In this document: piece by piece, positions 9,811 to 15,279 of the stretch | Layout of the letters: each line of letters begins with the position of its first letter | How positions within the stretch are numbered: the stretch's first letter is position 1 | NCBI RefSeq assembly: GCF_007066085.1 | Contig: NZ_CP041405.1 | Span: 4,791,001-4,855,000 of the forward strand | Length of the DNA stretch: 64,000 nt | Source of the DNA: Paenibacillus thiaminolyticus | GTDB lineage: Bacteria; Bacillota; Bacilli; Paenibacillales; Paenibacillaceae | Direction: 5' to 3' | The notes under the pieces: model-generated | What the model saw: only the letters and a program-made list of their open reading frames with translations | Told to the model about the DNA's origin: nothing | The model's database searches: none | Position numbers and translations under genes: made by a program

Positions 9811-9860
9811 AGATTCGATGCCGAGTTACTTTCGGTATCACCTCGTGATCAAAAGCGGAC
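9811..9860 (-). repeat. Dispersed intergenic repeat, short copy
   Basis: Read on the minus strand this starts GTCCGCTTTTGATCACGAGG and ends CTCGGCATCGAATCT. It matches 12658-12706 on the plus strand at about 44 of 50 positions, including the whole GCTTTTGATCACGA block. The two copies lie in opposite orientation in the two gaps that flank the ATPase-permease pair. It is non-coding. Confidence 0.8.
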
Positions 9861-9878
9861 TTTTTGAACTAACCTCTC

Positions 9879-11534
9879 TTAGAGCGAGAGTTCTTTTTGT
9901 CCTGAGAGCCTCAGGAAGATAAGCAGCGATACGACCGTAATGATGGTAAGGATCGTGGACAGCGCTGCGGCCACGCCATAGTTCCCGCGTATGACCTCGG
10001 TATAGATAGCCACCGTAACGGTCTTCGTCTTGCCTGTATATAAGATGATAGAGGTGCTTAATTCGGTAATGATCGTAATCCAGCTCAATATCGCTCCGGA
10101 CACGACGCCTGCCAGCATCATCGGCAGCGTAATCTTGAAGAACGTTTTCATCTTGGAAGCGCCCAAGCTGATCGCGGCTTCTTCAATCCCGTCGCTAATC
10201 TGATGCAGAATGGCTGCACTCGATCGAATCGTATAAGGCAGGCGCCGAATGACGAATGAGATAATCATGATTAGTGCGGTTCCGCTTAATATCAGCGGCT
10301 TATTGTTGAATGTAATCAACAAGGCAATCCCGAGAATCGAGCCAGGTACGATATAAGGGAACATCGTGAAAATATCAAGTGTGTTCGTCAACGCATTCTT
10401 CCGGCGAACAGTTACATAAGCGATGAGAATCGCCAGCAGGATAATGACGACCAGCGATATGATGGCCAGGAAGAACGTGTTCGTAATGACGCTGCCAATA
10501 TTATTGAAGGCATCCCGATAGCTTTGCAGCGAGTATCCGTCAACGAAGATTCGGCCGTTCGATTTCTGGAAAGAAGTATAGATGACGTACAGCTGCGGCA
10601 ACAGCGCGATAAACGTATACAGATAGATGACGGCATGTGCCGCAATATTGCCGATTCCTTTTTTCTTCTTGGCTTCAATCGGATGCAACGCACTCATCGT
10701 GAACGAGTTCCGATGGGAGATATATTTTTGCATCAGGAAGATAGCGGTTGCGAACAATACGACAATGACGCTGATTGCGGCTGCAAAGCCGTCGTCGCCG
10801 CCGACCTCACTGATGAATTCATTAAAGATTAAGACAGGAACGGTCTTGTAGCCTTCTCCAATCAGCATCGGCGTACCGAAATCGGCAAGCGCCCGCATGA
10901 ACACGAGCAGACCGCCGGCGAGCAAGGTTGGCGTAATGAGCGGAAGCAGCACCTTGCGCATTTTGCTGAAGCCATTATATCCCATGCTCTCGGCAGCTTC
11001 CATCAGCGATTGGTCGACATTTTTCAGCGCCCCGGATACATACATGAAGATGAGAGGCACCATTTGCAAAGTCAACACTACTAAAATCCCCGTAAATCCA
11101 TATATGTCAGGCATCGTAATCCCAAATGTGTTGCTGACGAAGCGGGTAATGACGCCGTTTCTCCCAAGCAGCAAGATCCAGGAGTAAGCTCCAATGAATG
11201 GGGCCGACATCGACGAGATCAGAATTAAAATCCGTATGGTTGAATTCCCTTTAATCTTAACGGTGGCCATGATATAGGCCAGCGGTGTTGCAATAATGGC
11301 CGCAAGGGCGGTTACACAGACGGTTACTTTTATACTGTTGAATAGTGCATTTAGATAGTAAGGCTTACTGAAAAACTTCACAAAATAAGCGAATGAAAAG
11401 TCGCCTGTCGTGCCGTTGTACACGCTCTTGATCAGCATCGTAAATAATGGCAGGGCCAGAAAAAGAATATAGAACAGAAAGATCAGGAACGAGATGTTAG
11501 TCCAGACGTCAAATCGTTTGTGCGTCCCCTTCAT
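9879..11534 (-). CDS. Fe3+-type ABC transporter permease (two fused permease domains)
   Basis: 551 residues, about twelve hydrophobic helices. Two BPD_transp domains lie in one chain, each with its EAA loop (MEAAESMGYNGFSKMRKVLLP and IEEAAISLGASKMKTFFKITLP) that docks on the ATPase. This fused form is the FutB/SfuB/FbpB class, which passes ferric iron through the membrane. The gene overlaps the ATPase gene upstream by ATGA, so the subunits are coupled in translation. Substrate class is inferred from the binding protein and this fusion; related systems also carry thiamine or other small ligands. Confidence 0.88.
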   Translation of the reverse strand: MKGTHKRFDVWTNISFLIFLFYILFLALPLFTMLIKSVYNGTTGDFSFAYFVKFFSKPYYLNALFNSIKVTVCVTALAAIIATPLAYIMATVKIKGNSTIRILILISSMSAPFIGAYSWILLLGRNGVITRFVSNTFGITMPDIYGFTGILVVLTLQMVPLIFMYVSGALKNVDQSLMEAAESMGYNGFSKMRKVLLPLITPTLLAGGLLVFMRALADFGTPMLIGEGYKTVPVLIFNEFISEVGGDDGFAAAISVIVVLFATAIFLMQKYISHRNSFTMSALHPIEAKKKKGIGNIAAHAVIYLYTFIALLPQLYVIYTSFQKSNGRIFVDGYSLQSYRDAFNNIGSVITNTFFLAIISLVVIILLAILIAYVTVRRKNALTNTLDIFTMFPYIVPGSILGIALLITFNNKPLILSGTALIMIISFVIRRLPYTIRSSAAILHQISDGIEEAAISLGASKMKTFFKITLPMMLAGVVSGAILSWITIITELSTSIILYTGKTKTVTVAIYTEVIRGNYGVAAALSTILTIITVVSLLIFLRLSGQKELSL

Positions 11535-12637
11535 AGCTGACCGCCCCTTGTATAATTCAATTCGCCAGTAGCATCGTACACATTGATTTTATCCGTCTTC
11601 ACTTTCAAATAAATGATTTGGCCAGGCTCCAGGATTTGTGAAGTTTTCGATTCCTGCGTAATCTCTACGCGCTGACCGGATTCCAGATCGACGAAGTAAT
11701 GCGTGTTCTGTCCGAGGAATACGCTGTGCACAATGGTCGCCTTCAAGCCGGATTGATCCTCGGTCATGATGAATTCTTCCGGCCGAACCGAGATTTGGAC
11801 GTTAAGCTCGGCTTGCTTATTCGATGCCGGCACTTGAATGTTAGAGAGCTCTTCCGCATAACTTGAACCGATATGCAGTTGATAGCTGCCTGCTTCTCGC
11901 GACAAGCTTCCTTGGATAATATTCGTGCGTCCGATGAAGGTAGCAACGAATACGTTCGCAGGACGTTGATAGATTTCTTGAGGCGTGCCCAGGTGCTGAA
12001 TGATGCCTGATTTCATTACCGCAATGCGATCGGATACGGCCATCGCTTCTTCCTGATCATGCGTAACGTAGACGGTGGTAATGCCGACTTCCCGTTGAAT
12101 GTCTTTGATCGCGTTCCGCATATCGACCCGCAGCTTCGCATCCAGATTGGACAGCGGCTCATCCATCAGCAGCACATCCGGCCGGATAACGATCGCTCTG
12201 GCGAGCGCAACGCGCTGCTGCTGGCCGCCGGACAGGTTCTTCGGCATGCGGTCCTTGTATTGTTCGATTTGCACGACCTTCAAGATTTCATCCACTTTGG
12301 AGCTAATCTCCGCTTTGGATAACTTTCGATTCTCCAGCCCGAATGCGATATTTCCTTTGACCGTGAGGTGAGGGAAGATGGCATAGTTCTGGAAGACCAT
12401 CCCGATATTCCGCTTGCCCGGTTCGACCTGATTAATGACCCGCTCGTTAAAGTTAATCGTTCCGCCTTCAATGCTGTTGAAGCCGGCAATCATGCGCAGC
12501 AGTGTAGTCTTGCCGCATCCCGAAGGACCAAGAAGGGTGAAGAATTCACCCTTCTTAATCTCCAGGGACAACTCAGGAATGACGGTGGTATCGCCATATT
12601 TTTTTATTAGGTCTTTGATTGTTATTGTCACGCTCAT
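11531..12637 (-). CDS. Fe3+-type ABC transporter ATP-binding protein
   Basis: 368 residues from the ATG at 12637 (AGGTG 6 bases before); a GTG three codons earlier is the alternative. Walker A GPSGCGKTT, signature LSGGQQQRVALARA, Walker B VLLMDEPLSNLDA and the switch His in YVTHDQ are all intact. A C-terminal TOBE/OB region of about 120 residues is present, as in FbpC/PotA-type subunits. It drives import through the fused permease downstream. A gap of 264 bases with a structured repeat separates it from the binding-protein gene, which may lower its expression relative to that gene. Confidence 0.92.
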   Translation of the reverse strand: MSVTITIKDLIKKYGDTTVIPELSLEIKKGEFFTLLGPSGCGKTTLLRMIAGFNSIEGGTINFNERVINQVEPGKRNIGMVFQNYAIFPHLTVKGNIAFGLENRKLSKAEISSKVDEILKVVQIEQYKDRMPKNLSGGQQQRVALARAIVIRPDVLLMDEPLSNLDAKLRVDMRNAIKDIQREVGITTVYVTHDQEEAMAVSDRIAVMKSGIIQHLGTPQEIYQRPANVFVATFIGRTNIIQGSLSREAGSYQLHIGSSYAEELSNIQVPASNKQAELNVQISVRPEEFIMTEDQSGLKATIVHSVFLGQNTHYFVDLESGQRVEITQESKTSQILEPGQIIYLKVKTDKINVYDATGELNYTRGGQL

Positions 12638-12657
12638 TGTTGTCACCTAACCTTTTA

Positions 12658-12839
12658 GTCGCTTTTGATCACGAAGTAATACTGAAAGTAGTTCGGCATC
12701 GAATCTTGCATTCACTCTCGAAGAGCGTATGCTTTCGAAGCATGTTTCCTGCGGAAACATTTGAGCTGCTCATGTAGTCTTGCCTACATTCCGCTGCTCC
12801 TTACAAGTTTTGCTGAGCAAAACTCGCTTCGAAAGCATA
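12658..12839 (+). repeat. Dispersed repeat with cloverleaf-shaped structured core
   Basis: The first part (12658-12706) is the same repeat as at 9811-9860. The second part folds as a four-way junction. The outer 14-bp stem is perfect (12728-12741 with 12826-12839). Inside are three hairpins: 12742-12749/12753-12760 (8 bp, 3-nt loop), 12772-12777/12784-12789 (6 bp) and 12806-12813/12817-12824 (8 bp, 3-nt loop). All stems are perfect. Beyond it, 12840-12895 looks like a divergent inverted copy of the left end. It is transcribed, in minus sense, between the binding-protein and ATPase genes. It is non-coding and resembles a MITE or REP-like element. Confidence 0.75.
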
Positions 12840-12901
12840 GGCTTCGAGTTCTTGCAACCTTCTCGGTGCTGAAAACCGCCTCTTTAAACATGTTCTTTCG
12901 T

Positions 12902-13924
12902 TTATCTGATGCTTGTGAACAGATTGATATACTGCTCGATGATTTCGGATTTATGCTCGCTTACATAGTCCGTATCTTCATCGATCATGTGGATGTCGGC
13001 AAGCGGCGTCATGTAGTCTCCAAGCTGCGTGTCGATACGAAGCGGCCGGTTCGTCAGCTGCGTGCCGAATGCGTCTTGCGCTTCTTTGGACAGAATGAAG
13101 TCGATGAACTTCTTGGCATTGTCCATGTGCGGCGCGTCTTTAATAATAGCGGATGCCGCATCCAGGAATACGGCGCCTTCCTTTGGATACACGACTTCTA
13201 CAGGTGCACCGTTGCGGACATAGGTGCTGGACGGATCTTCATATGTTAAGCCGACAACATATTCACCGTCAGCCACGCTCTTATGAACGGCGCCGGAACC
13301 GCTTGCAACTTTACCATCCAGGTTCATGATCAATTTGGCAACATAGTCCCAGCCTTCTTGACTCTCATAATCGCCGCCCATCGCTTTCAGCATATTGGTG
13401 AGTTGGGCGAAGGCGGAGCTGGAGCTTGCCGGGTCGGCAGATGCAATTTTCCCTTTCAGCTGCGGATTCAGCAAATCTTCATAGCTTTCGATTTTGATAT
13501 CGCCGATGAGGTTCTTATTTACGAGCAGCACGCTTCCGTCTGAAATGTAAGGCGTGGCGAAGCCTGTCGTATTACGGTGGCCTTCAATTAAATACTGATC
13601 TTCCGGCGATACGTAAGGCTCGTAGAGGTCGGCATTTTCGCGGTAACCTGCCATCGAGCCGCCGAACATCACGTCTGCGTACGGGTTATTCTTTTCCGAT
13701 TGTAAGCGCTTAATAATTTCGCCTGTTCCAGCCGTTACAAGCTCAACCGTAATCCCCGTTTTCTTTTCGAACATCGGAATGATGGTTTTGATGATCTCTT
13801 CGCTATTCGGACTGTAGATGACGAGTTTATTGGATGATGCTGCATCCGACTCGCTATTTCCACAACCACTAAGCGCCCCGACAACCAGTATGCAAGCTAA
13901 CAGCAACATAGAAAACCTTTTCAT
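12902..13924 (-). CDS. Fe3+-type ABC transporter substrate-binding lipoprotein
   Basis: 340 residues from the ATG at 13924, which follows a GGGGGG ribosome site; the open frame extends upstream without support. The signal peptide ends LSGCGNSES, a lipobox, so the protein is anchored outside the membrane. The mature domain opens KLVIYSPNSEEIIKTIIPMFEKKTGI and contains KNNPYADVMFGGS and FLSKEAQDAFG, the pattern of the FutA/IdiA/AfuA class (SBP_bac_6/11). Family members bind ferric iron through Tyr residues, but some bind other ligands, so iron is probable and not proven. It is the first gene of the importer and two-component run on the minus strand. Confidence 0.88.
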   Translation of the reverse strand: MKRFSMLLLACILVVGALSGCGNSESDAASSNKLVIYSPNSEEIIKTIIPMFEKKTGITVELVTAGTGEIIKRLQSEKNNPYADVMFGGSMAGYRENADLYEPYVSPEDQYLIEGHRNTTGFATPYISDGSVLLVNKNLIGDIKIESYEDLLNPQLKGKIASADPASSSSAFAQLTNMLKAMGGDYESQEGWDYVAKLIMNLDGKVASGSGAVHKSVADGEYVVGLTYEDPSSTYVRNGAPVEVVYPKEGAVFLDAASAIIKDAPHMDNAKKFIDFILSKEAQDAFGTQLTNRPLRIDTQLGDYMTPLADIHMIDEDTDYVSEHKSEIIEQYINLFTSIR

Positions 13925-14106
13925 ATTTATTCCCCCCGAACGAAAATCGTTTAGTTGCAACTTCATTGTAGCAAGACTGGTACCGCTTACAGAATCCCAC
14001 GATTCGAAAACATTGTCTAAAATTCGCAAGTGAATTTGGAGAAAGGATGATAGGGTTGTTTGGTAGCGGGAATTATTGGAGGATAGCACATATCTTTTTG
14101 CAAAGA

Positions 14107-15279
14107 TTAATAAATAAGTGGAAAATAATCTTTTATGATATAAATCGCTTTATATTCGCTTAATTCTCGTTTCTTCCTGATGAGGAGTAATTGGCGCATT
14201 TGAAACATGGTGGAGGAACAAAGAAGGATGCTAATTAATTGTCCATACAAGTGACATTCTAGTCGTTCTAATTTTACAGAATTACAGTGATGAATACGAA
14301 AAAATGATTTCCATGTTTTAAAGATAAGTTCAATTTGCCATCGTAAGGAGTAAAAATCGTATACTTGTTCTTTTGGCAGATATTCCAAAGGAATATTTGT
14401 AATGTAAAAGTTAATTGCACTAAGCCGCTTACTGCGTTCTTTATAGGTAATTTGCTTCTTATGTTCTTTAGATGCTAAATCCTTTTGTCTACGTTTCATT
14501 TGTGTCAATAAATTGCTCCATATCTAATTGGATGTACTCAGAGTGCTTTTTTATGGTTCCATTTTGAAAGTATTCAGGATCTTTATTCTTCTGATATATA
14601 CGTGTATTAAGCTTTAATCGTGAAATAAAATAAGCACCACACTCGCTTATAGTATGTAAATCTTTTAAATCGAAATATCCTAAATCACGTATGCATACAT
14701 CGTTCGGTTTAAGGGATGTTAAACAAGTAGAAGCATAAGTTTTATCATTATGCTTTCCTGATCCTTGATCCTACATGAACATGTAGAAACTGACCACTTA
14801 GTAAATCATACTCTAGTTGAATTTTTACGCCAGCATTTTGACCGCTACCACCTGAACCTTGGTATATAGATGTGAATTTATCAGGAATCTGAAAATGTGT
14901 AGAATCCAATATGCGGATACGTCGAAAATAGTTTGTATACAAAGTTGGAATTTTGCTAGAAGAACAAAATTATTGGTGAAGTAAATGTGCTAAGAGTTGT
15001 TGTAAAAACTGAACAGCCTGAGAATTAAAGCGTTGATTGAGTCCTTCTGGACTCAATGCCTGTGTTAGCTTCTAATCGACTGCATAAATGTGTCAATGAA
15101 GTGTGAGCTATATTTTGACTTAATCAAATACATAAAGCCACTAAATCTTGTGCGCGGTATTTACTTTTTCGTTTCACAAATCCTACATTTTTAGCTAATT
15201 GCTCTAAAGCATTAGGTGACATATATCGTTGCAACTCTTTAGAAAACAATTCTAGTTCATCAAAAATCGATAAGTTCAT
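14107..15279 (-). pseudogene. Decayed IS4-family transposase
   Basis: The minus strand can be read from an ATG at 15279 (NLSIFDELELFSKELQRYMS) through a stop after VALCI and several frame changes. It continues to [20 protein letters not shown] around 14.9 kb (DDE-region start) and [18 protein letters not shown] near 14.3 kb, which is the Y-(2)-R-(3)-E-(6)-K signature region of IS4-type DDE enzymes. At least three breaks interrupt it, so it cannot work. AT content is well above the flanking genes. Terminal repeats could not be identified with confidence. Confidence 0.85.

Follow-up and report, generated by a model that had tools for sequence, protein, structure and literature searches.

A probable new MITE family with exchangeable hairpin modules, rather than an operon-specific stabiliser, in a Paenibacillus transport operon

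A cloverleaf-shaped repeat separates two genes of an ABC transport operon in the window, the 64-kb (64,000-nt) stretch of the Paenibacillus thiaminolyticus genome analysed here, and raises the question of whether it serves that operon or belongs to something wider. In the malE-malF system, a REP-like element is reported to give an excess of binding protein over the products of the downstream transporter genes. A first-pass annotation, made from the sequence alone, had proposed such a role for the present repeat, with insertion of a MITE, a non-autonomous DNA transposable element, as the alternative. The cloverleaf that it described was confirmed in full: the outer stem (12728-12741 with 12826-12839) is 14 bp long, perfect, and spans 112 bases, and the three inner hairpins are all perfect (12742-12760, 8 bp; 12773-12788, 5 bp; 12806-12824, 8 bp). 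Beyond that description, the element was found to run from about 12653 to 12889, the cloverleaf being an optional insertion within a larger hairpin element. The features of the locus are as follows.

9811..9876, minus strand: truncated copy with only the left end and its terminal repeat, reading from 9876 to 9811
9879..11534, minus strand: permease gene, with two matched permease-domain stretches (PF00528)
11531..12646, minus strand: ABC transporter ATPase gene, downstream (PF00005 and PF08402)
12653..12889, plus strand: whole element, left to right end, from matches to genome sites and the 26-copy alignment A1
12653..12662, plus strand: remnant of the left terminal repeat (consensus GAGGTWGTTCAAAAAGTC), mostly lost in the window copy
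12660..12723, plus strand: left subterminal region, CGCTTTTGATCACGAAG...CGGCATCGAATCTTGCATTCACTCTCGAAG (alignment A1)
12724..12764, plus strand: left module, arm 12728-12741 and hairpin ATGTTTCC/GGAAACAT at 12742-12760
12728..12741, plus strand: 5' arm of the 14-bp outer stem, TATGCTTTCGAAGC
12765..12800, plus strand: centre with the hairpin TGTAG/CTACA at 12773-12788, also found in basal copies
12801..12841, plus strand: right module, hairpin AGTTTTGC/GCAAAACT at 12806-12824 and arm 12826-12839
12826..12839, plus strand: 3' arm of the 14-bp outer stem, GCTTCGAAAGCATA
12842..12889, plus strand: right subterminal region, CTTCGAGTTCTTGCAACCTTCTCGGTGCTGAAAAC, with the worn right terminal repeat at 12877-12889
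12902..14089, minus strand: gene for an extracellular solute-binding protein, upstream in the transcript (PF13531; likely start 13927, by eye)

The cloverleaf arises because two hairpin modules of about 38 nt, mutually inverted, flank the central hairpin. The right module is an inverted relative of the left: its reverse complement has the same arm, TATGCTTTCGAAGC, and a different hairpin. The left module is missing in many copies of the element. The stretch folded more stably than its dinucleotide shuffles, both as RNA (-84.3 versus -62.4 kcal/mol, z -4.9) and as DNA (z -6.2), with none of 200 shuffles as good in either case. Nor is the fold a product of chance, as further copies are scattered through the genome. 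The window copy is full-length apart from its two terminal repeats, both of which are worn. Its longest stop-free stretch is 66 codons, and each of the six frames contains 2-4 stops. The inverted recurrence of the left segment, pointed out earlier, proved real (a 47-nt match at 9811-9857, 89% identity) and extends into the family's terminal repeat, with an end at 9876; this truncated copy has a full-length ortholog in genome G017 (L105). The suggestion that the right end is a divergent inverted copy of the left held only in part, since 12842-12889 pairs with the left end over some of its length. A DDE_Tnp_1 (PF01609) transposase fragment lies upstream of the binding-protein gene (14107-14508, minus strand), and no end of the element was found beside it.

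A search of the window's own genome, G000 (6.6 Mb, one contig; other G numbers denote the genomes compared with it), returned 44 matching rows, 31 of them at E ≤ 1e-3. Merged by hand, these 31 rows fall at 20 places, namely 19 element sites, the window copy included, and one lone module; searching for the terminal repeats brought further, collapsed copies to light. Of 60 genomes, G000 included, 29 had a match to the element or to its module. When a sample of 392 genomes of the order Paenibacillales was scanned for an end signature, an exact pattern fitting either end, 86 carried it. They represent 13 of 49 genera and three families, and the richest genome has 85 ends; the reversed control pattern gave zero matches in the same 392 genomes. 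Copies in relatives, on which the first-pass annotation had made its readings depend, are therefore present. Carriers include Paenibacillus sp. MSJ-34, P. profundus YoMME and P. sp. 2.1. Plasmid matches came from three records in two Paenibacillus species, among the carriers being replicons of P. cellulosilyticus and P. urinalis. There was one phage match, a partial one in the P. dendritiformis phage Pd_22F, and one exact pattern had 0 matches in viral contigs. By rough ORF calling, most copies with a readable setting fall between predicted ORFs, and the 26 loci classed out of 30 were 13 tandem, 7 divergent and 6 convergent.

Two further settings were recorded. On the P. urinalis plasmid CP118102, a copy (L211) is flanked by genes for a permease and a solute-binding protein, and its resemblance to the window operon is probably a coincidence. 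The 16S-23S rRNA spacers of G000 also contain the element, close in front of the 23S rRNA gene: a full basal copy at L021, and copies collapsed to a terminal-repeat hairpin at L048 and L051.

The ends of these copies were informative as to how they had arrived. The element bears terminal inverted repeats, GAGGTWGTTCAAAAAG; intact copies begin with GAGGTWGTTCAAAAAGTC and close with the inverse of its inner part plus about five bases. The left terminal repeat GTTCAAAAAG, with at most 2 mismatches, was found in 50 of the 66 copies having both end cores, and under a looser rule both ends were readable in 48 of the 66. Flanking duplications of at least 5 bp occurred at 12 of these 48 copies, a set that includes orthologous sites and one copy (L169) whose left flank is the end of an adjacent copy, against a shuffled mean of 2.1 (maximum 8; 3000 shuffles). 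The other 36 had fewer than 5 matching flanking bases, and duplication length was uneven, mostly 5-6 bp and up to 9-10 bp. Targets were AT-rich, with a preference for TWWWA (T at -5 in 36 of 48, A at -1 in 43 of 48). At one site, S11, G000 and G011 carry the element between two CTATTA sequences, and G001, G007 and G014 have an empty site with a single CTATTA.

Terminal inverted repeats, AT-rich target duplications and empty sites together indicate a MITE, and with the wide copy number they bear out the alternative that had been suggested at the outset. Measured copies range from 87 to about 260 bp, below the roughly 600 bp taken as the upper size of a MITE, and have no coding capacity. Three internally deleted 87-bp copies in P. 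cellulosilyticus share an identical junction and lie at three places (L215, L218, L219); because the same form sits at three places, the ends alone suffice for spread. In head-to-tail arrays of G120 (L372), one AT-rich, target-like stretch separates the copies. The cloverleaf of the window is thus very probably a copy of such a non-autonomous element.

The family is probably a new one whose hairpin modules are exchangeable, and is unlikely to be an operon-specific stabiliser. In copies from other genera the basal form, of about 175 nt, comprises the left end, the central hairpin and the right end; the window copy is a long form, with one module of about 38 nt on either side of the centre. Among 116 distinct copies, sorted by regular expression with at least one (L156) misfiled as lacking both, 60 had neither module, 33 both, 13 the left only and 10 the right only. 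In G378, the ends listed (65 of 67) formed 19 adjacent opposite-end pairs, spaced by 141-142 bases (10 pairs), 179-180 (6), 213 (1), 832 (1) and 98 (1); the main spacings are steps of about 38 bases.

To follow individual insertions, 20 orthologous sites were compared in G000, G001, G007, G011 and G014, module states being read by eye from alignments. A readable centre was kept by at least two of the five genomes at 11 sites. Module states agreed at 8 of the 11 (S02, S03, S05, S09, S11, S14, S19 and S20) and differed at 3 (S01, S06 and S07), at each of which G001 has the two modules and G011 has neither. At S01, G014 also carries both modules, and the centre motif CCGTTGCTCC occurs, among the 116 copies, only in the G001, G014 and G011 orthologs. 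As this motif is confined to long and short orthologs of a single site, the modules there changed while the centre was retained. At S06, in the same way, the right-end motif CTTCGAATTCGAG is found in the two orthologs alone. The tree of the flanks pairs G000 with G011 and G001 with G014, and the module difference fits either gain in G001/G014 or loss in G011. Internal collapse with retention of the ends is recurrent, seen as four distinct deletions at S04 and two at S02, with further collapsed copies at S05, S10, S17 and S20. Orthologous insertions in five close species provide a record of palindromic mobile DNA gaining and losing parts.

A rule by which both modules change or neither does was considered and rejected: it holds for the five-genome set only, and is contradicted by S10, outside that set, where G013 has the right module only and G017 has both.

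Compensatory change in the stems was assessed on alignment A2, made of 21 diverse basal copies. The basal form is one long, imperfect hairpin running from end to end, with 90.4% of cells paired. Double compensatory changes were found in 26 of 49 pairs, against 10.7 ± 1.9 in shuffles (0 of 500); as kinship of the sequences inflates shuffle tests, the safer control is to slide the pairing partner by 1-3 columns, which gave at most 10 pairs. The covariation that the first-pass annotation had named as a check is accordingly present in the diverse set, but hardly at all among 26 mostly same-genus long copies (2 of 57 pairs). Just outside the end cores, pairing of the arms within each copy exceeded pairing between copies. 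Copy-specific arm matches numbered 83, versus 54 ± 4.7, in the 16 copies whose left terminal repeat is not recognised, and 264, versus 238 ± 4.3, in the 50 copies where it is (0 of 5000 shuffles in each case).

The balance of mismatches suggests the molecule in which this pairing is maintained. In the stems of 88 dereplicated copies, G-U and A-C stood at 93:109 on one strand and 107:84 on the other. The first count on A2 had been 11:48, or 11:23 without four ill-paired columns; because these columns skew it, the 88-copy set and both strands were relied upon, A2 alone giving 11:20 and 19:11 on the two strands. In the single small RNA control on which the argument rests, SAM riboswitches from related genomes (30 of 55 matches, 28 distinct, start motif in place in 29 of 30), the ratio was 11:3 when the riboswitch strand itself was read, and 3:3 for the opposite strand and a structure predicted on it. 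The absence of a preference for G-U over A-C indicates that the stems of the element are probably maintained as DNA; the double-compensated pairs could instead mark selection on an RNA that tolerates little wobble. Counting G-U against A-C offers a simple means of asking in which form, RNA or DNA, such hairpins are maintained. The covariation had at first given the impression of RNA, against which this count argued.

Two readings in which the repeat acts as RNA were weighed against the MITE. Under one, a REP-like mRNA stabiliser or partial processing barrier would leave the binding protein in excess over the ATPase and permease. Its attractions are that the element begins 12 bp past the binding-protein stop, inside the likely transcript, that the fold is very stable, and that bcr3 repeats in Bacillus cereus transcripts are described as correlating with mRNA half-life (PMC3446304). 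The position between the binding-protein and downstream transporter genes is not conserved, however, as it would be for such a stabiliser. Thirty genomes were searched, and 10 relatives have the binding-protein gene at E ≤ 1e-60. In G001 and G011, with a binding protein 96% identical, the gap is short and lacks the element, and it is also element-free in G003 and G008. In G013, G018, G016 and G017 it holds only short, collapsed terminal-repeat hairpins, and in G010 and G002 other sequence, with a left-end-like stretch in G010. Since the element is absent from this gap in the relatives with the most similar binding protein, any role that requires it is not conserved. Orientation relative to the genes shows no preference either (5 same and 7 opposite among 12 oriented copies of the tandem set, by rough ORF calling), no terminator-like site is present, and the stems, with G-U no commoner than A-C, bear the mark of DNA pairing. 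The stabiliser first proposed for this gap is thus unlikely, and a local side effect on mRNA in the window strain is possible.

The strong compensatory covariation, and the location of most read copies between predicted ORFs, would also suit a conserved cis-acting RNA, such as a riboswitch-like leader, spread by vertical descent. Target duplications and empty sites largely refute this, and the varied gene settings (13 tandem, 7 divergent, 6 convergent) and DNA-like G-U:A-C ratio tell against it as well. No covariance model of Rfam 15 matched in the 64-kb window at the gathering score, the best permissive hit in the element region had E 2.8, and 17 loci with modules or copies yielded nothing except rRNA and tRNA. 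Such an RNA family is highly improbable. A different objection concerns the type of mobile element. An end-to-end hairpin with compensated stems, DNA-type pairing and tandem copies could belong to a single-strand (HUH/Y1, REP-RAYT-like) element rather than a DDE-type MITE. Double-strand cut-and-paste elements, but not Y1 elements, would be expected to have terminal inverted repeats and target duplications, and a single-strand origin is accordingly rather improbable.

If the element is a MITE, a transposase supplied in trans would recognise its ends. Hairpin pairing might be kept because transposition uses a cruciform or single-strand form, or alternatively because one arm templates the repair of the other during replication. 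Individual copies differ in the modules that they have, modules can change in place, whatever the mechanism, and old copies collapse through internal deletion, often keeping their ends, a behaviour to be expected of deletion-prone palindromes. The copy in the transport operon would be one such passenger.

An autonomous parent was not found in searches that mostly covered exact or near-exact ends. The terminal-repeat search of G000 revealed none, nor did the end pairs listed in relatives, in the P. cellulosilyticus replicons, in G023 and in G051, and none of the six matches to IS1182-type transposase (PF13751) in G000 had the element's ends in the surrounding DNA examined. The exact ends listed for G120 (85 of 85) and G378 (65 of 67) likewise included no autonomous element; the one pair set widely apart (about 864 bp, L370) encloses no complete ORF of at least 60 codons. 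The nested stretch of L370 (G378:C3:257139-257994) starts GAGGGTGTCCCAAAAGTGATC and is perhaps another inverted-repeat element. A different nested insertion, of about 60 nt with two hairpins by eye, was seen at L236 and L232 in G051, a genome from another family of bacteria, between CTTTTG and the remainder of the left end.

Several known repeats resemble the element in part. ERIC and other long-hairpin MITEs of enterobacteria are each, as a whole, one imperfect hairpin; the end-to-end hairpin is shared here, while sequence, host and modules differ. BOX of Streptococcus pneumoniae is a hairpin element of modules variable in number. The present element is modular like BOX, but its modules occupy two fixed, mutually inverted positions on either side of a constant centre, and it combines target duplication with terminal inverted repeats. 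Pneumococcal BOX, RUP and SPRITE elements are described as inserting into each other (PMC10969869). The bcr1-bcr3 repeats of the B. cereus group are reported to be intergenic, gene-less, MITE-like and often in transcripts; bcr1 averages 39 copies per strain, its mobility tied to a 5-bp AT-rich motif, TTTAT (PMC6542083, PMC3446304). Compared by description, they are alike in behaviour. Their hosts are of a different family, and the portions of these accounts drawn on here mention no modules taken from a second repeat, such as the present element has. The flanks of the present element show the TWWWA preference given above rather than a fixed TTTAT. REP/BIME elements with RAYT are short palindromic units between genes (PMC3733652), to which the tandem arrays of the solo module are comparable; the present element differs in its terminal repeats and target duplication. 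REP is defined, in part after the same source, by a palindrome of 20-40 bp, a GTAG or CGTC tag and a Y1 transposase (PMC3733652), in whose main text a word search returned no mention of Paenibacillus. Literature searches by subject and by sequence stretches retrieved no description of element or module, those by sequence yielding unrelated papers only, and the family is apparently undescribed. Among the small mobile elements of Paenibacillus and its relatives it makes up a large family, and apparently a long-lived one.

The modules also occur on their own. A pattern for the arm gave 51 rows in 8 genomes, and of the 24 examined as loci, 19 are not part of the element and occupy 17 distinct sites. 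At 10 of the 17 (a raw count, with three start codons read by eye and two TTG starts), the unit, often in tandem, directly precedes AGGAG or GGGAGG and a start codon. The genes behind these solo modules are unrelated to one another: ribosomal protein L17, adenosylhomocysteinase, MsrA/B, EutM-like and SafA-like (above the curated cut-off), MnmE-like and a sugar-binding protein (below the curated cut-off), and one without a match. A further solo module lies before an ATP synthase epsilon gene. Within the element, the right module likewise adjoins AAGGAG. These observations would tentatively allow the modules to be a second mobile hairpin that lands immediately 5' of Shine-Dalgarno-like sites, with the AAGGAG of the centre as its target. 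If so, a mobile element would seed ready-made 5' leader hairpins at ribosome-binding sites across Paenibacillaceae, and the link between module and repeat could explain the recurrence of such hairpins there.

As a separate repeat, the hairpin reads AAGCRTATGCTTnCGAAGC-hairpin-TTTTAGGAGG and occurs in up to four tandem units directly before the start codons of unrelated genes. Rfam matched nothing at its loci except rRNA and tRNA in one of them. The loci are L199 (G000:C1:570870), L190, L197, L188, L180, L195, L201, L182, L184, L088 and L086.
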